From assembly GCF_000499845.2 (NCBI RefSeq), contig NC_023749.2, forward strand, positions 4,373,030-4,437,029: a stretch of DNA of 64,000 nucleotides. Direction: 5' to 3'. The notes under the pieces were generated by a model that saw nothing but the letters and a program-made list of their open reading frames with translations, did not search any database and was not told the DNA's origin. The translations under genes and the position numbers were made by a program. This document shows positions 32,283 to 63,553 of this stretch, one piece after another. The stretch's first letter is position 1, and each line of letters opens with the position of its first letter. This DNA is from Phaseolus vulgaris (Eukaryota; Streptophyta; Magnoliopsida; Fabales; Fabaceae).

Positions 32283-33329
32283 AAGACGAACCTCCCTCCC
32301 GTCGTTTGGGCCAACATGTCACACTGGACCGACAGAATAGCCTGCAGTTTTTGTTTGGGCCAACAAGGTTTTTTATGAATGTGCTGTTTTTTGTTTGAAT
32401 TGGTTTGTGCCGACATTGCATTGTATACATTATAATAATGCGAAATGATTGGGTTACTAACTTGTTCTAAATTTAGATGAGTAATCATGAATTGTTCATT
32501 ATTAAATACTCAGAAATGGAATGCTTTAGCTGATTAAAGAGGACAGGTGTAGGAAGATTTGAAAGGAGGATGTGACAGCACCTATTATGAAAATGTTTAA
32601 GTTGTTCTAATTTGAGTTGGATAAGCTATCCTTCATTGTTAATTATTAACATAAACAAGCTTAGTTTAATTAAAAATGACAAGTGTAAGAAGTTGATCAA
32701 ATGGAAATATGTGGATGCTTCAGAAATCTGCTTGATTCTGACATTCTCACATTCTTTAAGAGAAAATTGTGATAGTGAAAATGTTGAATTTTATTTTAAT
32801 AAACATATACATCATTATTCACACTTTGCTCTTTATTTTACTTTCTTTCATAGTGTAGTAGAAGAAAATAAAACAAAGAAACATCACAATGTATATATTA
32901 AATTTAATATATTATATCTAACACAATACAGCATCAAAGTGTATACAAATTATTTTCTAATAAAGACTTTTCTTGTGAAGTTGACACGTCTTATCCACTT
33001 TTTTTATTGTGAAATAAAAAACATATTACATTATTAATATAACTAAAGAATATACACGTTTATGATCAAATTGTAAACAATTCTCTTTTTCTCATAAATA
33101 TGGAATATTTTGTATATTCAAATGAACTTCTCAATAACTTTAAAATAATCCTATTTTTTTTATCAGTAATAAAAAATAAATAAATGAAAATCACTTCAGG
33201 GTAGTCTAACCCTTATACACAAAGAGCTAGCGCTTTATCAACCTCTTACCAAGGGACACCTTCCAACTTAAATAAGGAACAACCAAACCAAACTCAAGAA
33301 AACATTAAACAACCAGCCTCATACAATCC

Positions 33330-33730
33330 ACTAGTTCAAAACCCAGTTGGGATACGTAAAACCCAAATCGCCCTCCAAACGTCATTAACCACATCAAAAG
33401 TCGAACACAACCTGAATTGTTGGAAGTTTACCGAAGGGTCCTTGTGGATAACAAACGACACTCCTAGCCACTCAAAACAAAAACATCACACCCACCAGGT
33501 AAACTTGCAGACTAAAAACAGATGACTGGACGACTCTTTCACCTTCCCACACAAACCACACATTGGATTCTCTACCACCACCCCTCATCTTTCCAAATTT
33601 ACCCTAATAGCAATCTTATTCTTCATCACCCTCCAAACAACGACCAAAACGGAAGACAAAGCTTTACACCTCCACAATAAACTGGAGAAGCCTCTCCAAC
33701 TCTATCCTTCCTAACCCAAAATCATCCTCA
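33330..33730 (-). pseudogene. LINE-type retrotransposon remnant, zinc-binding (zf-RVT) region
   Basis: Minus-strand reading gives fragments RVNLERRGVVVENPMCGLCG, then KVKESSSHLFLVC, then FEWLGVSFVIHKDP and VVNDVWRAIWV, with stops and frame changes. This is the zf-RVT domain found near the C-terminus of plant non-LTR retrotransposon polyproteins. No reverse transcriptase core is seen nearby. Confidence 0.6.
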
Positions 33731-34619
33731 TAATTTCATCAATTATAGCACATAAACATTTTATATGATATAACCTTAATAATTCATATAACTTTTTTGT
33801 TACACTCTACACATATCAACATTCTTTATTTGTCATAGTTTCTACAAATTGAAAAGAACATATTCATCATATTGGTATCTATTTATCCCAAATTCATTAT
33901 CATTAAATTGGTATTTCGTAATGACACATTTACTATTTCAATGTCTCTTGATTTTGTTATTTAATATATATTCCCAAAATATAGACTTCGTAAGTTTTTT
34001 CTAAATTGCTTGCAAATCGAATGGTCAAACACGACATTTCTAGTTTTTTTAATTATAGTGACATCTTAGATGTAAAAACCTTATTGCATTATTGACAAAT
34101 TGGTTTTCAAAGGCCAAATTAAAAAACTTGTTTAACCGATCCAAATATTTTATCGTATTTCATGACGTATTAATCCTTTATTTATTCATCATTATATCTA
34201 TCTAGCTAGATGCTTTATGTTTAAAGTATATTATTTAATAAAAATCATCCTGAAAGTGTTGCTCTTGGAATTGTTAACACATTATATCAACATGAGTATT
34301 GTTTTCATTAAATGCATTTCTTATTCAAGCTAAATATGATAGTCTCATATGTCAAAAAAAAAAAACTATATATATAATAATAATAATAATATTAATATGT
34401 TGTAGAGAATATTTACTATTTTCATCTATCAATAAACACAAGAAATTATTAATTTATCAAGGGAAAAATTACTAAAACGATATTTATTAGTAATTTGATT
34501 TTATCGATAAAGATGCAAAATTAAAAATTTATCAAAAATATTCGTTGATAATTGAATGTCAATCCATATCCATCAATAATTTGATGTCAATAAATATTTA
34601 TCGATAATTTGACGTTATA

Positions 34620-49548: not shown

Positions 49549-52500
49549 ATGACAAATGCACATGGTGGCTCCACATTAGTGGAGCTAAATACACATAACA
49601 CCTTACACAAACCCAAATTCGAAACATTATCACATCCTGAACCTATTTCGTTTAGCAATTTTAATAATGAGGACGATGACTTCAACTTTAACCACAATAG
49701 CAGCACCACAAGTAGTAATAATGCCTCTCCCTATTCTATGTCCCCATGGAACTTCCAACCCAATACTTATTCTCCTCTCAACAAGTCCCCATGGTTATTA
49801 TTACCTAACTCACCCGAAAGTGTCTTCAACCACCACAACGAAGATAATCACCCTGAAACTGAGCTTATCGGATCGCTTGTCCGCGAAACAGGTCACATAT
49901 ATTCCCTGGCCGTTTCAGGGGAATTGTTATACACAGGCTCGCACAGTAAGAACATAAGAGTTTGGAAACAACTCAAAGACTTCACTGGTTTCAAATCAAG
50001 CAGTGGATTGGTCAAAACCATAGTAATATTCGGTGGCAAAATTTTCACTGGCCACCAAGATGGGAAAATCAGAGTGTGGAAAGTTTCTTCCAAGAATCCA
50101 AATAACCACAAACGCATAGGGAGCTTGCCCACGTTTAAAGAATACGTGAAAAGTTCCATGAACCCAAAGAACTACGTGGAGGTTCGGAGAAACAAGAATG
50201 CAGTGAAGGTGAAACACTTCGATGCCATTTCGAGTTTAAGCCTAGACAAGGAAGAAGGGTTATTGTACTCTGGTTCGTGGGACAGAACATTCAAGGTGTG
50301 GCGCGTGGCAGATTCAAAATGCTTAGATTCTATTAGTGCACACGATGATGCAGTGAACGCGGTGGTCACATTGTTTAACGGACGTGTGTTGACCGGATCT
50401 GCTGATGGGACTGTGAAGTTATGGAAGAGGGTGAATGGTCAAAAAGGGGAGAAAGGGGAGAAGGGAAAAAAGTCAAAGCATGTCTTGGATCGAATTTTGC
50501 TAAAGCAAGAGAATGCTATTACATCGTTAGCTGTGAATTGTATGGCCACAGTGGTTTATAGCGGTTCTTCTGATGGTTTAGTGAACTTTTGGGAACGTGA
50601 CCAAAAGGGTGAATACTTGCAAGGTGATGTTTTAAAGGGACATAAACTCGCTGTGCTTTGCCTTGCTGTGGCTGGAAACCTCATTTTTAGTGGCTCAGCA
50701 GATAAGAATGTGTGTGTGTGGAGGCACAATAAGAATGGTTTCCACACATGTCATTCAGTTTTGGTAGGTCACACAGGCCCTGTTAAGTGTATTGCCGTGG
50801 AGGAAGAATACTTGCAATCAAAGAAGTGTCATGAACAAGAACAAGGGTGGATAGTGTACACTGGGAGCTTGGACAAGTCAGTGAAGGTGTGGCGTGTGTT
50901 TGAACAAGTGTCAGAGGTAGGCACATTCCAAAGCAAGACCCCTTTGAATCATGTTGGTTCTCCCCATCATTCTTCTTTAGGAGGGTTAAATTATAGCTCA
51001 CCAAGAACAATGAATGTTAATTCTTCAATGACCGGAATGAGTTATTCGTCACCGCAAAAGGCCATTGTTAGCCATGAAAATGACCTTAACAACCAGAATT
51101 GCGATGCAACCAAGAACACTCCCAATGACAATAATAAGAATCATGATCATGCTAAAAGTAGTGAAAAAGGAGACAAATATTCCAATTGGGGTGACATTCA
51201 TGACAACAACTACAACAATGATAACAACAATGACTATGGTAGCACTAGAATCAATGATTCTCAAAGTAACAAGCGAAATAACGGTGATATCACTAAGAAT
51301 AATAACTTTACGGATAGTATCAATAATGCTAAAAGCATTAACAACACCAATAAAAGTGGGGATGCTAGCAAGATTGACATCAATAACAAAATAGGGGCAT
51401 GTAAAAACATTGGTAATAGCAACAACAATAATGGTGCTATTGGTGGGCGCATTGACAATAACAACAACAAAAATTACAACACAGATAGTCTAAAAAGTAA
51501 CAACAACAACAACAACAAAAATCATAATGTTGATGGTGCTTCTGTCAATAAGAAGAGCAATTACAACATTGATATTAGTAAAAGTAAGGACATTGACAAC
51601 AATAGTATTAAAAACATTAGCAATGACAATGACAATAGATACAACAATCATAACATTCCTATTGGTAAACACATTGACATTGACAACAACTGCAATATAG
51701 GTGCAAGTAAAAGCATTGACATTCGCAACAACAACAATAATGCAGATATGGGTAGACACATCGACAATGACAACAAAAATCACAACATTGATAGTCTTAA
51801 GAGTAACAACAATAACATCAACGACTATAACAATGATGATGTTTGTGTCAACAAGAAGAACAATTACAATATTAATGACACTAACAACAAAGACATTGAC
51901 ATCTATCAGTACAACAATGATAGTACTAAAAGCATTAGTAATGACAACAAATGCAACAACAATGAAAACATCTATGTTGATAAAAGAATTGACATTGACA
52001 ATAATCGCAACACAAGAGCAAATAAACAGATTGACATCATCAACAACAACAACAATGTCAATATTCGTAGATGCAACGAAAATGTCAACGACAACAAGTA
52101 TCACAATGTTGATAATCTTAAAAGCAACAATAATGATGGCCAAAAAGATAACAATGATAGTCTTCATGTCAACACCAAAAATTGCAATATTGACACTACA
52201 AAGAGAAAAAACTTTGACAACAACAACTACATCAATGATAGTACTAAAAGCATTGACAATAACAAATACAACAACAATGATAACATTGATGTTGGTAAAG
52301 AAATTAGTATTGGTGGGAAATCCAACACAAGTGCAAATGAAAAGATTGACAATATTATCATCAACAACAATATTGATATTAGTAGACGCAATGGCAATGA
52401 CAAAAAAGATCACAATGCTCATGGACTTAAAAGTAACAACAATGACAACAACAATGGTAAGAAAGATGGTGTAAATGTCAATAGCAAAAGTAATGGTATT

Positions 52501-55500
52501 ATTAACACCACTAAGAGTAAAGATATTGACACTAACAATTACAACAACAATAGTGCTAAAAGCATTGTCAGTGATGATTACAACAAAGACAACAACAATT
52601 GTAACATCAATGTTGGTAAAAGAATTAGCATTGACAAAAAGCACAACACAAGTGAAAATAAAAATATGGACACAAGTAACAACAAAAAAGCTGATATTGA
52701 TAGACATATGGACAATGACAACAAATATCATATTGCAGGTTGTCTTGAAAGTAATTATGGTGGCAACAACATCCGTAACAATGATGATAATCATGTCCAT
52801 GCCAACAAAATTTGCAACATTGATAGCACTAAAAGTAAAGACATTGACAATAACAACTACTACAATTATGGCATTAAAAGCATGAGCAATGACAATGAGA
52901 ACAAATACACCAACAATGATAACATTAGTGTTAACAACAATACTGATATTGGTAGAGGCATGGAGAATGATAACAAAAATTGGAGCTCTGGTGGTCTTCA
53001 AATAAATAATAGTACTAACAATACTAAGAGTAAAGACAACAACTACGACAACAATAAGATAAAAAGCACCACCAATGACATTGACAACAAAAATGGTAAT
53101 GTTGATGTTCGTAAAAGAATTAACATCGACAAAAATGACAATGACAATAGATATCACTATGTTAATGGTCTCAAAGGTAACAATAATGACGATACCAACA
53201 ATAAGAATGACAATGTTCATGTCAATAGCAAAAGCAATTGCATCATTGGCTTTACTATGAGTAAAGATATTGGCATTGACAATTACAATAGTGATAGTAC
53301 TAAAAGAATTGACAGTGGGAACGACTATAAATACAATAATTATAAAAACGATACTGGTAAAAGAATTGACATTCACAACAAGTACAATACAAGTGGAAAT
53401 AAAAAGATTGACATTAGTAACAACAACAATGTTGATATTGGTAGATGCATGGTCAATGACAACAAATATCACAATGTTGTGGATCTTAAAAGCAATTATA
53501 GTGGCGACGTCATCCACAATAATGATGCTGATAATGTCAATGGGAAAAGTGATTTTAATGTCAATAGAAATAATAGTAGAGACATTGACATAGACAGGTA
53601 CGACAATGATACCATTGATGTTGGTAAGAGAATTAACACTAGCAACAGTTGGAATACAAGTTCAAATAAAAAGATTGACATCAGTAACAACAATAATGTT
53701 AATATTGATAGGTACATGGACAGTGACAACAAAAATCACAACTCTGATTGTCTTAAATGTGATAACAATGGTGACATTATTCATAACAGTGATAATGATA
53801 ATGTCAATGACAAAAACAATTACAGCATTGATAGGTCAAAGAATAAAGTCAACAACTACGACAATGATATGATCAAAAGCATCACCAATGAAACTGACAA
53901 CAAAAAGGGTAACATTGATGTTCGTAAAACAATTAACATTGACAACAATCCCAACACAAGTTTCAATAAAAATATTGACAACATCAACAACAATAACATT
54001 CATATTGGTAGACACAATGATAATAGCAGCGACAACATCAATAACAATGATGATGATAATGTCAATTGCAAAAACAATTTCAACATTGCTAGCAATAAGA
54101 GTAAAGACATTTTGATTAACAAGTACGACAATGATAACATTGAAAGCATCACCAATAACACTGACAACAAATACAACAAAAATGGTAACATCGATGTTGG
54201 TAAGAGAATTGATATTAGCAATGGTTGGAATACAAGTTCAAATAAAAACATTGACAATATTAGCAACAACAATGTTGGTATTAGTACATGCAATGACAAT
54301 GACAACAAATATCGCAACATTCATCTTAAAGGTAACAACAATGGTGGTAACAATGATAAGAGTGGTGTTTATGTCAATAGCAAAAACAATTGCATCATTG
54401 ACTCCACTAAGAGTAAAGATATTGACATTAACAACTACAACAATTATAATACTAAAAGCATTGACGGTGGGAACAACAATATATACAACAACAATTGTAA
54501 CAACGATGTTGGTAAGAGAATTGACATTGAAAACAAGCACAACACAAGTGGAAATAAAAAGATTGACATTAGTAACAACACCAATGTTGTTAATGGTAGA
54601 CACATGGGCAATGACAACAAATATTACAATGTTGATGGTCTTAAAAGTAATTATAGCGACGACAACATTCATAACAATGGTGGTGATAATGTCAATGGAA
54701 AAAAGAATTTCAACATTGATAACACTAAGGATAAAGATATTGACATTAACAACTGCAATAATGATAGTACTAACAGTATTGTCAATGATAATGACAAGAG
54801 TGTTAGAACTAAAATCACTAAAAATAGGGACAACAACCCCAAAATTGATGGTGTTGAAAGCAATGGGAACAAGTACAAGAGTATTGATGGTGGTAAAAAC
54901 ATTGAGTATGAGGATAACAATAAACAAAAGGATGGAGATATTGTTAAAAATATCAACGTGAACTATAATAATTACAGTGCTAGAAACATTAATAGTGACA
55001 ACAATGTTCATAACAGAGGCAAAGATGGTTACAACTACAACAACAATAATGGTAAAAGCATTGATATTGGCAACAATCACAATACAGGTAAAAACATTGA
55101 CAGTGACAATAACAATTACAAGAGTGATAGTCTTAAAAGCGACAATAACCATAACAATAATGATGTTTATGCCAATGAAAATAATACCTACAACAATGAT
55201 AGAACTGAGAGATTTGGTAAAGAAAATACCAACAAAAATCATAAGAGTGTTAGAACTAAAAAACCTATTATCAATAAAGATAATAATTGCAACAATGATG
55301 ATTTTAAAAGTGGAAACAATATCAATAACCATGATGGTGTTTATGGCAATAACATTTATATGAATGGTGTTGTTAAGAGTGATGACAATGTTAGAAATAT
55401 ATGCATCAATGATAGTTCTAAGGGTTATACTAATCATGGTGGTACTTATGGAAAAAATATTTGCAACAATAATGATGTCAAAGGTAGTAACAATGATACT

Positions 55501-57066
55501 TTCAAGGTAAATGACAACAACATCAATTGTGATAATGTTTATGACAATAACAATCACAATAAGGATTATGCTAAAAGTAAGGACAATGAAAGCTACAATG
55601 ACAACACTTATAACATTAAGTGTAACAACAATGGTAATAGTAAAAATGATAGTGCCTATATCAATGGAAATAATATTTACAAGAGTGATGACACTAAAAG
55701 CGGTAGCAATATCAACAACACATGGAATAATAACAGTATCAAGAATGATGGTGTTAATGACTACAATATTCACAACTATGATGGTGTTAAAAGTTGCAAT
55801 AACATCAATAACCATGGTGGTGGTTGTGGCAATACTATTCAAAAGAATAATGATTCTAAGAGAAATGAAAATAGTAGTCATAACAACAAGAACAATAATT
55901 CTAAAAGTAGTAGCAATGACAAGATTAACTATGACAGTGTTTATGGAAATGTCAATAATAATCCAAACAATGGTGGTGCTAAGAGCGATGACAATGTTGG
56001 CAACATGAACACCAACAATAACTCAAAGAAAAATGTCAATGGTAGTAAATATCATGATATTGCTTATGGCAATAACATTCACAACAATGATGATGCTAAA
56101 ATCAATTGCAATAGTCGCAACACCAACAAAAATGATACTTCTAAAAGTAAAGGCCTTATTAATAACACACGTGATGATGCTTATGACAATAACATTCACA
56201 ATGTTGATTGTGTTAAAATCAGTGGCAATGACAACACCGTCACCAACAAAAATAACAATGATAATTTTAAAGGCAACAAAAAGGGAAACAACAATTATGA
56301 TGGTGTTTATGGTAGTGAGAATGACATTCACAACAATGATGGTGTTAAAAAAGGTAGTAGTGATAATTACAAGGGTAACAATGATAGTTACAAGAAAAGT
56401 GATGATAATAACAACAAATGCAACAAAAGTAGTGCTGGTGGCATTGCCAACTCTAAGAATGATCGTGCTTGTGAAAATGAGAATTACATATGCAACAATG
56501 ATGGTGTTAAAAGAAATGCCAATGACTACAACAACCTAAAAAATGATCGTTCTTGCGGAAATGAGAATTACATCTGCAACAATGATAATGCTAGAAGAAA
56601 TGTCAATGACTACAACAACCTAAAAAATGTTCGTGAATGTTTAAATGAGAATTACATATGCAACAATGATGCTACTAAAAGAAATGGCAGTGACTACAAC
56701 AACCTAAAAAATGATAGCGTTTGTGGCAACAACAAGAATAGTCATACTACTAAAAGCAATTCCAACCACAACAACAATAACACTAAAATCAATGATAGAA
56801 GCAGTCTCAATGATCACAGTGCTAAAAGCAATTCAAATAACAATTCTAATTATAGAAACAATAATGGTTTTAAAAGCAATGAGAACAGTATCAATCACAA
56901 TCGTGATGGTACTAAAAGCAATTATGATGTCGACAACAGTAAAAGTGATGCCAATAGCAATCATAATCATGCAAGCAATCTTCTCCAAAACAATAACAAC
57001 AATATTGTTGACTACCGAAACAAGAACGAGAGGCAGTTGCAAAGTAGAAATCAGTATTGTGATTAA
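49549..57066 (+). CDS. JINGUBANG-like WD40 protein fused to a ~2,040-residue Asn-rich repeat tail
   Basis: One uninterrupted 2,505-codon ORF. Residues 1-105 are the family leader ([17 protein letters not shown], two SPW motifs). About 105-455 form seven WD40 repeats: [23 protein letters not shown], then [60 protein letters not shown] and [12 protein letters not shown]. This matches Arabidopsis JINGUBANG, a negative regulator of pollen germination reported to bind TCP4. A Ser/Pro linker (about 465-510; YSSPRT, YSSPQK) follows. From there to the stop it is low complexity, rich in N, D, K, S, G and I, almost free of P, Q, L, A and E, with repeats of about 105, about 40 and 28 residues. The paralogue at 62150-63553 ends right after the WD40 part. 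Protein expression of the tail is unproven; a prion-like or scaffold role is speculation. Confidence 0.85.
50428..50475 (+). repeat. Small in-frame GEK-repeat insertion in a WD40 loop
   Basis: Codes for [15 protein letters not shown] between WD repeats; the paralogue has the shorter [10 protein letters not shown] there. Two GGGGAGAAA-type units make the extra residues. Confidence 0.6.
51664..54825 (+). repeat. Tail repeat family A, about 105 codons per unit, ten anchors
   Basis: The anchor GKRIDI (and close variants) begins at 51664, 51979, 52294, 52615, 53110, 53356, 53623, 53923, 54199 and 54511. Spacings are 315, 315, 321, 495, 246, 267, 300, 276 and 312 bases. A full unit runs roughly: [40 protein letters not shown], a spacer with DNVNVNSKNN, then [20 protein letters not shown] and a DN-rich linker. 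The 495 gap probably contains one degenerate unit lacking the anchor. Confidence 0.85.
55328..56370 (+). repeat. Tail repeat family B, about 35-40 codons per unit, about ten copies
   Basis: Units share a core like [17 protein letters not shown]: for example [68 protein letters not shown] and [19 protein letters not shown]. Between cores lie variable N/K/S-rich spacers. Confidence 0.7.
56479..56730 (+). repeat. Tail repeat family C, 84-base tandem repeat, three copies
   Basis: GAGAATTACAT begins units at 56479, 56563 and 56647, exactly 84 bases apart. Each encodes 28 residues beginning ENYICNND and ending in DYNNLKN plus a short variable part. It is the most recent-looking and most regular of the tail repeats and carries two Cys per unit. 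Confidence 0.9.
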
Positions 57067-59438
57067 TTATGTACAATATTTTATTAGTTTATTGTAAAAT
57101 CAAATTAATTAATGTTTAGGAATATGTGTATTAAAATGCAAAGTATGTATATAAAATGAAATCAGAGTAAAGACTAGTAGATGAAAAGATAGTGAAGCTT
57201 ATATAGAATTGTGACTTTGTATAGTTACATCGGATTATGATATAAAGATGTACTTAGAACTTGAGAAAAAAAATACAAAGAAATGCATTTGAATTATTTT
57301 GCATCTATGATTAGGTGAGAAATGGAAAGTAATTCCCCTATATCATTGCTTTCATCCATCCCTCACCTTCATTGTATAAAAAATAATCAATATGATATAT
57401 AAAGATATCTTATCTCATACGTAATTCCTCAAAATTCTAGTCTTACATTATGATAAGTTTATTTATATTATTTTAGGATATACTCTTAAGCTTATTGTTA
57501 TTGATAAGTTTATTTATATTATTTTAGGATATACTTTTAAGCTTGTTGTTATGAATTAGAGTGTATGATTTTCTGACCTTGTATATATACACAGCCTTAA
57601 TGTATACTTTTGATGATTCGTTTCTTTTGTTAATTTCATTTTATAATTTCTTTATCTTTTTTCGTATATTTCATTGACACTATTTTATGTTTTTCCCCTC
57701 TTTTAGTGTTTTGTAGGGCTCTCTCTTCCAATTTTATTTTTAAAAATGAGGTCATTCAAATATAAAAAAAAAATAGTGATTAATTATATTTCCAAATATT
57801 TTAACAAAATGGAAATGTGTTTGTTTGTTTATAATTATAATTTTGATTTATTTTAAAAAAATAACTGCTTTTTATGACGAGCTATCTCATTTAAAATAGA
57901 TTATATATTTTTTCCTTTTAATTATTTTGAAAAACTGAAATAAACTCATGAAAAGCTATTCAAATCTATTATTTTTAACGAAGAAATTATAAGAAACATT
58001 CTATAATCCATCATATTTGTCTTTTTCTATTTTTTCTACCTCGTTCGTTGGCTACGCTCATTTTACATGTATCTGAAGTGTGTGGAAATATAAATGTTTT
58101 TGTGCACATTCTTTTATACGTCTTTGTGAGATATTATAATTATATTTGCAAAAACTAAATTATTTAACAACTTCTAATATTTATTTCCGATTCACAACTA
58201 CTACATCTTGTTTTTATATCATACATATTCAAATATTATATTAGACATTCTTCGAGTCAAATCAAGAAGTCATATCCATCAATATATATGTAATAAAATA
58301 TTTTTTATACTATTATCAATGGAATAAAATATCTAATACAAAATAGTTCTAGCTATTAAATTCAACCATAAAAAAATATATAATATATTAAAATCTAGAA
58401 AAATTACTATTCATGATATAAACTAATATTTTCTATACCTAATTTCTGGATTTTTTTTTTTACTTTTTAAAAAATTAAATTTTCAGAAAATAGAGTTTTT
58501 TTTTACGAATATTTTGAATCAGATTTCTAACAAAAACATAATCTTGCATGGAGAGGTGGAAACTAACCTTCCTAAACAAAAAGTATAAATTTAACTAAAG
58601 AAAATAGGACTGTTATTTTTATTAAATAATTTAATGTGATAACAAATTTAAATTTTGATAAAAACAGCGTATTGTTTCTTGATTTATAAAAACTTGTTCA
58701 AATAATCTTAAGAATATTATTTTACCACTTAAGTAAAATTTAATTATTCTTAAAAATCCTAATTTTTAAGGTTTCATATTTCCAAAAATCATGGTTCTCT
58801 TCTTTATATGCCAAAGCATATTTCTAGTAAACGCTATCACCTAACAGATTTAATTACCCTCTCACAAATAAAAACTCGTAATTTTGGACATATTATTCAC
58901 GAGTATTCAATAGAGTTGAATTAGACCAAACTATAAAAAAAAAATGAATATAAAATTCTCTTGTTGTGAAAGTATCATTTCTTTTATTATAAATTTTGGG
59001 TTATTTGTGACTTGTGAACCTCTCTTTGTAACATGTAATGAGCTCATTTTTGAAGCATTAGTTTTGGAACAAAGAGCATGTAGCAAGCAATTTATGATGC
59101 ATTTATAGTGCAGAATATACATCTCAAAGTCTATATTTTTTATTAGAATAAGTGTTTTGTAGTCAGAATGGGACTTTTGTATCCAACTGTTTTACACTTT
59201 TTTTGGCGTAAGTCTGGTGTGTAGGTTTTAATATGAATCATTTTTTGTATTATGATTACAGTACCCTTAAGTGCTACTTTATATTAATTCATTATTTGCC
59301 TGTAAAAAAATAAAAAAATATTTTGGTACTCTTTCTCCTCAAACAATTACCAGTTTTCATTAGATGATTTTATTTTTAAAAAAAATTATGATTTGATACC
59401 CAATTTTATCTCTCACAATTCCTTCTAATAATAAAATA
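57067..59438. other. Intergenic, 3' flank of the long JINGUBANG-like gene
   Basis: AT-rich. Contains a 51-base tandem duplication at 57452-57553. No gene recognised. Confidence 0.55.
57452..57553 (+). repeat. 51-base tandem duplication, two copies
   Basis: GATAAGTTTATTTATATTAT begins both copies (57452 and 57503); they differ at a few positions, e.g. TACTCTTAAGCTTATT versus TACTTTTAAGCTTGTT. Confidence 0.85.
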
Positions 59439-62149: not shown

Positions 62150-63553
62150 CTATGTGGTAAATTGACCCGGAGTGGTCCAGCTCAACTCCGGCGTCTGTTC
62201 AGACACGCGCCACACCTTCACCGACTTGTCCAAGCTCCCCGTGTACACAATCCACCGCTGATCACCTTTCTGGCGAGGCTTCTCCTCTTGCGCCTGGTCC
62301 TCCTCCACGGCGATACATTTAACAGGACCCATGTGACCCGTCAGAACCGAATGGCAGGAGTGGAACCCACTCTCGTCGCGCTTCCACACACACACGTTCT
62401 TATCCGCAGACCCACTGAAGAGAAGGTTCCCCGCCACGGCCAGGCAGAGCACGGCTAGCTTGTGCCCTCTTAAAACGCCGCCGTGGATAAACCCACGCTT
62501 CTCGTCACTCTCCCAGAAGTTCACCATACCATCAGAGGAACCGCAATAAAGCACCGTGGCCGTAGGGTTCACCGCCAGCGCTGTAACCGCGTTCTCCTGC
62601 TCCAGCAAAATCCGGTCCAACACATGCTTTGGCTTCTTCCCCTTCTCATCGCGCACCCTCCTCCACATCTTCACCGTCCCATCCGCGGACCCCGTCAACA
62701 CCCACCCTCCGGACATCGCCACCACCGCGTTCACTGCATCGTCGTGCGCGTTGATCGACTCCAAGCACTTGGAATCCGCCACACGCCACACCTTCACCGT
62801 CTTGTCCCACGACCCGGAGTACAACAACCCTTCCTCCTTGTCCAGGCTCAAACTCGAAACGGCGTCGAAGTGCTTCACCTTCACCGCGTTCCGGTGCCGC
62901 CGAACCTCCACGTAATTCTTGGGGTTCATGGAACACTTGACGTAGTCTTTGAATGTCGGCAAGCTCCCGACGCGTTTATGCTTGCTTGGATTCTTGGACG
63001 AAACCTTCCACACTCGGATCTTCCCGTCTTGGTGGCCCGTGAAGATTTTTTCGCCGGAGATTATTATGGTTTTTACCAATCCACTGCTTGATTTGAAGCC
63101 AGTGTAGTCCTTGAGATGCTTCCAAACTCTTATGTTCTTGCTGTCGGAGCCCGTGTATAACAAGTCCCCGAAAACGGCCAAGGAATATATGTGACCCTCT
63201 TCGCGAACGAGGGATCCGATGAGGCTGTTTCCAGGAAAGTCGTCTTGTTGGTGGTGGAAGAGGTTTATCGCAGGTGAGGTGGGTAATAACCACGGAGACT
63301 TCTTGAGGGGAGATGAAGAATCGCGTTGGTAGTTCCACGGGGACATGGCGTAGGGAGAGACATTGTTGCTGCTGTCTGTGTAGTTTAAGTGGGCGGCGTT
63401 GCTGCGGCGGTTGTATTGGAAGTTATCATCGTCGTTGTTGGAGGGGTAAGGCGAGTTGGGTTCGGAGTGCAATAATGCTCCAAATTTGGGTCTGTGTAAG
63501 GCGTTGTTGTGTGTGTTGGGCTCCACCAAGGAGCCTCCCTGTGCGTTTGTCAT
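62150..63553 (-). CDS. JINGUBANG-like WD40 protein, tail-less paralogue
   Basis: Intronless 467-codon gene. Leader [20 protein letters not shown] with SPW motifs, then seven WD40 repeats: [83 protein letters not shown] and [12 protein letters not shown]. It stops 20 residues later ([10 protein letters not shown]), the normal end for the family. It is a close paralogue of the gene at 49549, in convergent orientation about 5 kb away. Its codons are GC-rich, whereas the long paralogue is AT-rich. Family members act as WD40 scaffolds; Arabidopsis JINGUBANG restrains pollen germination. A TATA box (63667-63674) and a G-box (63712-63717) precede it. The long plus-strand ORFs across it are shadows of GC-rich coding sequence. 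Confidence 0.93.

Follow-up and report, generated by a model that had tools for sequence, protein, structure and literature searches.

A JINGUBANG-like WD40 gene of Phaseolus vulgaris with a long asparagine-rich tail whose reading frame seems to be held open by selection

Introduction

A published account of Arabidopsis JINGUBANG (JGB) presents it as a WD40 protein that, together with TCP4, acts on the synthesis of jasmonate and on pollen germination (PMC8910673), and JGB genes appear among the candidates of a faba bean GWAS (PMC10965552). The Phaseolus vulgaris protein considered here shares with JGB a WD40 propeller and a similar size of that part, and differs from it by a tail of 2,000 residues. 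To our knowledge, Arabidopsis JGB has no comparable tail. In the open-licence JINGUBANG literature, searched by titles and the starts of abstracts, none of the titles listed concerned an Asn-rich JGB-like protein, and the open-licence literature yielded nothing on polyasparagine in plant proteomes; neither result proves absence. A survey of plant prion-like proteins names Phaseolus once, in a reference, and its main text does not contain WD40 (PMC8350573).

Two other described systems bear on this locus. The Asn-repeat proteins of Dictyostelium and Plasmodium falciparum are likewise otherwise ordinary proteins with long Asn-rich, low-complexity stretches, though those stretches are described as runs, of at least 20 residues in Dictyostelium (PMC3749963), whereas the longest N run in the bean tail is 6 and the tail is built of higher-order units of about 105 residues rich in D and K. 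In maize, 58 candidate pollen genes are marked by coding DNA that is methylated in the manner of transposable elements, and these genes tend to be intronless (PMC11436724).

Results

The window, by which we mean the whole 64,000-nucleotide stretch analysed (C11:4373030-4437029, in an assembly of 537,678,788 bases and 467 contigs), is free of any N. Its features are collected in Table 1. The long frame begins at an ATG with an in-frame TGA immediately 5' of it, and re-reading it upheld the original prediction of 2,505 codons without a stop. Because a single frame is open from ATG to stop, an intron is not needed for propeller and tail.

Table 1. Features of the tailed gene and its neighbour, in window positions
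Feature	Position	Strand	Basis or remark
Complete frame of 2,505 aa, followed by the stop codon (57064-57066)	49549..57066	+	
Seven-blade WD40 propeller, aa 104-452	49858..50904	+	Structure model, Pfam, Foldseek
Linker 3' of the propeller, aa 453-503, containing Ser, Pro and Asn	50905..51057	+	Alignment
Asn-rich tail, aa 504-2505, without in-frame stop	51058..57063	+	Stop counts
Twelve diverged repeat units of about 105 aa, aa 648-1750	51490..54798	+	
Looser repeats of about 40 aa, aa 1931-2252	55339..56304	+	By eye, with motif
28-aa (84-bp) tandem repeat, 3.1 copies, 86% matches	56458..56715	+	
Tailless paralogue, 467 aa, convergent	62150-63553	-	Separated from the stop of the tailed gene by 5,083 bp

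The propeller was modelled from a two-row alignment as 28 strands, that is, seven four-stranded blades, with pLDDT block means mostly of 67-96 and dips at residues 203-224, 298-305 and 423-430; over residues 455-647, where the modelled piece ends, pLDDT lies below 50. Pfam WD40 is found in 4 stretches (E 3.5e-31), the Foldseek matches are WD40 propellers, and a PDB sequence search also gives WD40. The seven blades claimed at the outset are thus borne out, while the label JINGUBANG-type came from resemblance and name, and we call the protein a JINGUBANG-like WD40 regulator on those grounds. The propeller is conserved, with omega of 0.084 across five family genes. Whether the propeller evolves faster in the tailed copy is doubtful, since unique propeller changes in the tailed copy and the paralogue number 24 and 9 when L011 is the outgroup (chi2 6.8), 15 and 12 with L013, and 8 and 12 with L015.

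The presence of a tailless paralogue some 5 kb away was correctly foreseen. It shares 74% residue identity with the tailed protein over residues 1-458, and in the alignment the linker has no clear counterpart there. With dN of 0.16 and dS of 1.05-1.15, the gene pair must be old. Of 21 matches in the bean genome, 11 loci were read for tails, the paralogue and ten more (L011-L019 and L021, of which L012 and L021 are partial frames); the weaker L022 and L024-L028, and one match without a locus, were left out. None of the 11 has an Asn-rich tail, as no 50 residues contain more than 11 N, and the same ceiling holds in any frame of the 1,356-1,497 bases downstream. Two family genes are each split over two frames, L012/L020 and L021/L023, which may reflect introns or breaks. 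Since the sister and ten other family loci are without a tail, the simplest history is that the tailed branch gained it. The suggested gain after the duplication therefore finds support within this genome; loss by the sister, which had been allowed for, is a less simple history.

The tail has 2,002 residues, of which 590 are N (29.5%), 236 D (11.8%), 200 K (10.0%), 170 I (8.5%), 169 S (8.4%) and 117 G (5.8%), with Y at 4.3%; the earlier estimates of about 2,040 residues and one third Asn were close. It is not a simple repeat, as the units of about 105 residues are followed by looser repeats and by 28-residue repeats. Among the twelve units, seven have 102-107 residues, three have 84-89, and two have 58 and 53, and a profile built from the twelve recovers the same twelve and nothing more above noise. 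The looser region gives autocorrelation peaks at lags 161, 324 and 39. The mean difference between units is 28% of bases (0.28 per base, 0.35 when corrected), with 18% for the closest pair, so that collapse of the 105-residue array in the assembly is unlikely; the 84-bp array is more exposed to assembly error. If bean sites change at some 8.5e-9 substitutions a year, the divergence of the units would represent roughly 20 million years, from which we predict that Vigna and similar relatives should carry the tail. About 400 bp 3' of the stop lies a 51-bp direct repeat in two copies with 96% matches (57451-57552), and elsewhere the most extreme GC skew of any kilobase in the window, -0.43, is at 33001-34000.

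An origin of the tail from a mobile element was considered and set aside, because in protein searches of the bean genome pieces of the tail match this frame alone: 8/8 matches for one unit (at least 12 scored candidates), 7/7 for residues 504-856 (at least 7) and 1/1 for the last 755 residues (at least 3). A blastn search of the rest of the window found no tail remnants at 1e-3. Beyond the paralogue there are just short matches of 13-23 bp with E of 0.23-0.82.

Is the frame open merely because of its composition? The six frames of the tail contain 0, 19, 534, 10, 106 and 174 stops. Against 0 in-frame stops in 2,002 codons, 2,000 shuffles that kept composition by codon position gave 22.0±4.2 (minimum 10), and a phase-specific Markov chain gave 23.3±4.7 (minimum 12 in 300). 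A neutral simulation along a tree of 11 units, the 53-residue unit 12 being left out by a 50% coverage rule, gave 8.6±3.9 stops and was stop-free in 1 of 2,000 runs (P=0.0005); its rates and branch lengths were drawn from the data, and would under selection be too slow rather than too fast. Maintenance of the frame thus goes beyond chance, and the tail seems to be held open by selection. The RNY codon pattern of the tail is no evidence for coding, because the neutral simulation reproduces it (T at position 1, 0.074 against 0.071 observed), and in-frame gap lengths were set aside as evidence since a codon alignment forces multiples of three. Two minus-strand open frames lie inside the tail, at 51490-53517 (675 aa) and 54238-55881 (547 aa); these read as shadows of the RNY pattern, as codons of the AAY and GAY type give no stop on the opposite strand. 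The motif AATAAA occurs 12 times in the tail against 20.7±3.3 expected; selection against early polyadenylation was rejected as the cause of this depletion, since AAT is no rarer ahead of AAA (11/38) than ahead of the remaining AAN codons taken together (odds ratio 0.98, P=1).

Constraint on the residues themselves is weak. Identity among the units at codon positions 1, 2 and 3 is 75, 71 and 69%. Two models that leave the transition rates free put omega at 0.82 and 1.04; fixing kappa at 1 brings it to about 0.58. In 500 stop-free neutral simulations, the N content, charged fraction and pairwise identity of the units came out as observed, while columns at 90% conservation numbered 15.0±3.4 against the 24 found, and local charge was less even (0.139±0.009 against 0.120). 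Third bases vary in the 24 conserved columns, with a heterozygosity of 0.21 against 0.30 elsewhere (P=0.06). These results suggest weak amino-acid constraint over a background of drift, and uneven mutability of sites could yield part of the signal. The tail has 260 positive and 265 negative charges, 26% of its residues being charged, and at windows of 10, 40 and 100 the two signs are intermingled more evenly than shuffling gives. Charge balance was discarded as proof of selection, as net charge does not vary significantly less from unit to unit than under neutral drift (9% of simulations show as little spread). One 105-residue unit, modelled with 10 units as the alignment, has a mean pLDDT of 38.6, a value that, coming from an alignment of 10 rows, is weak evidence of disorder. 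With no confident fold in that unit or in residues 455-647, the tail is probably unfolded and intrinsically disordered.

The third bases of the tail carry a further mark. Expressed as C/(C+T), third positions give 31/431 before G, 21/106 in CAG against 544/876 in CA followed by a base other than G, and 3/29 in CTG against 33/95 in CT followed by a base other than G. Stratified by codon family, the odds for C are 0.15 in CAG and 0.22 in CTG. The depletion cannot be put down to common descent of the units, because it is present within alignment columns that hold several contexts (CG 14/175, CHG 11/73, CHH 169/307). Avoidance of TpA too shapes these bases, and the third base of Asn codons tracks the base that follows, AAT making up 141/150 before G and 120/354 before A.

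Twelve control frames, ten from the family and two window genes, gave 394/747 for CG, 95/149 for CAG and 387/506 for CA without G, a CAG effect in the same direction but weaker (odds 0.54, P=0.003), and showed no CTG effect (51/105 against 258/536). The corresponding CG, CAG and CA-without-G counts are 20/74, 5/12 and 43/70 in the propeller part of the tailed gene, and 49/73, 8/8 and 43/53 in the paralogue. In the minus-strand mirror of the tail, a small check, CG is depleted (1/31) and CHG is not (5/16 against 91/299). Open frames in three mid-chromosome stretches, one with 2,877 masked bases, gave no CAG effect (68/95 against 241/322); young elements would not show one. The tailless copy has a CpG observed/expected ratio of 0.96 and a GC content of 0.55, and the propeller part of the tailed copy (49549-51057) 0.55 and 0.43. 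The plus-strand synonymous depletion of C before G and in CAG and CTG is such as long-term CG plus CHG methylation, of the transposon-like kind, would leave; the minus-strand check and the mid-chromosome stretches lend no support to the CHG part.

Discussion

What might the tail do? The reading we prefer, at a probability of about one half, is that the tail is a disordered, charge-balanced spacer, kept by selection on a JINGUBANG-like WD40 regulator and translated with it as one protein. A WD40 copy on this branch would have acquired a C-terminal region rich in Asn, Asp and Lys, which would then have expanded through in-frame duplication of blocks of about 105, about 40 and 28 residues. Translated within a single protein of about 281 kDa and intrinsically disordered, the tail would most likely serve as a bulky, soluble, polar spacer that alters how far the propeller reaches, its crowding or its valency for partners. 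Selection would hold the frame open, together with some positions, and let the other residues drift. Any role of the tailed protein in pollen is something that we infer. Counting against a selected spacer is that, with omega of 0.82-1.04 among the units, most tail residues look free.

That same omega near 1, and a composition such as neutral drift gives, would be expected if the tail were translated and tolerated without a role, in-frame slippage spreading its repeats, and the frame being kept because truncation or nonsense-mediated decay would hurt expression of the propeller. One would think, however, that an early stop in the tail is presumably harmless, since the other family loci that were read manage without a tail, and the excess of conserved columns and the evenness of local charge are also at odds with mere tolerance, so that we regard this account as possible but somewhat unlikely. 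It is highly improbable that the repeat is non-coding, open by composition and lying beyond the point at which the transcript ends or is spliced. The A-rich, RNY-patterned DNA does leave two more frames nearly open (19 and 10 stops), and AATAAA is present, but codon-position composition leads one to expect 22±4 stops, and the neutral simulation 8.6±3.9, where there are none. Plant introns are T-rich. In the tail A exceeds T (AT skew of about +0.3), and GTAAGT, GTATGT and AGGTAAG are absent, yet GGTAAG occurs 4 times and TTGCAG once.

It had also been speculated that the tail is prion-like, the Asn-rich region driving self-assembly of a WD40 scaffold. Long Asn repeats are described as prone to aggregate (PMC3749963), and in the bean protein 59 of 2,425 windows of 80 residues reach 30 Q+N. 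An approximate PLAAC-type score pulls both ways, the best 60-residue window scoring +10.9 and 15% of such windows lying above 0, against a mean log-odds of -0.12. The 2,002 residues include just 12 Q and 6 P, 26% of them are charged, and the N runs are short, a composition that departs from that of a canonical yeast-type prion domain, and we hold self-assembly of this kind to be improbable.

The spacer reading is concerned with the protein; could the DNA of the array matter as well? A distinctly tentative proposal, which we consider unlikely, is that the coding array is a methylation target, chronic CG plus CHG methylation of the tail silencing the regulator in the plant body and demethylation in pollen releasing it, while the array also encodes a disordered tail. 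The maize pollen genes offer a likeness in their intron-poor coding DNA with CG plus CHG methylation, to which the plus-strand C-to-T bias of the tail corresponds; they differ in being mostly directed at the cell wall, with WD40 unmentioned in the main text of that report (PMC11436724). We infer the link between the maize pattern and the tailed gene.

Are giant disordered tails selected or merely tolerated? A tail with higher-order repeats, matched in one gene of the genome and kept in frame while its residues drift, offers a natural test of that question, for which the neighbouring sister without a tail, at a distance of 5 kb, serves as an internal control. A real methylation footprint would in addition tie coding tandem repeats to epigenetic control of the pollen type. 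Were the methylation proposal true, the frame that encodes the protein would also act as an epigenetic switch, beside a CpG-rich, tailless sister without the switch.
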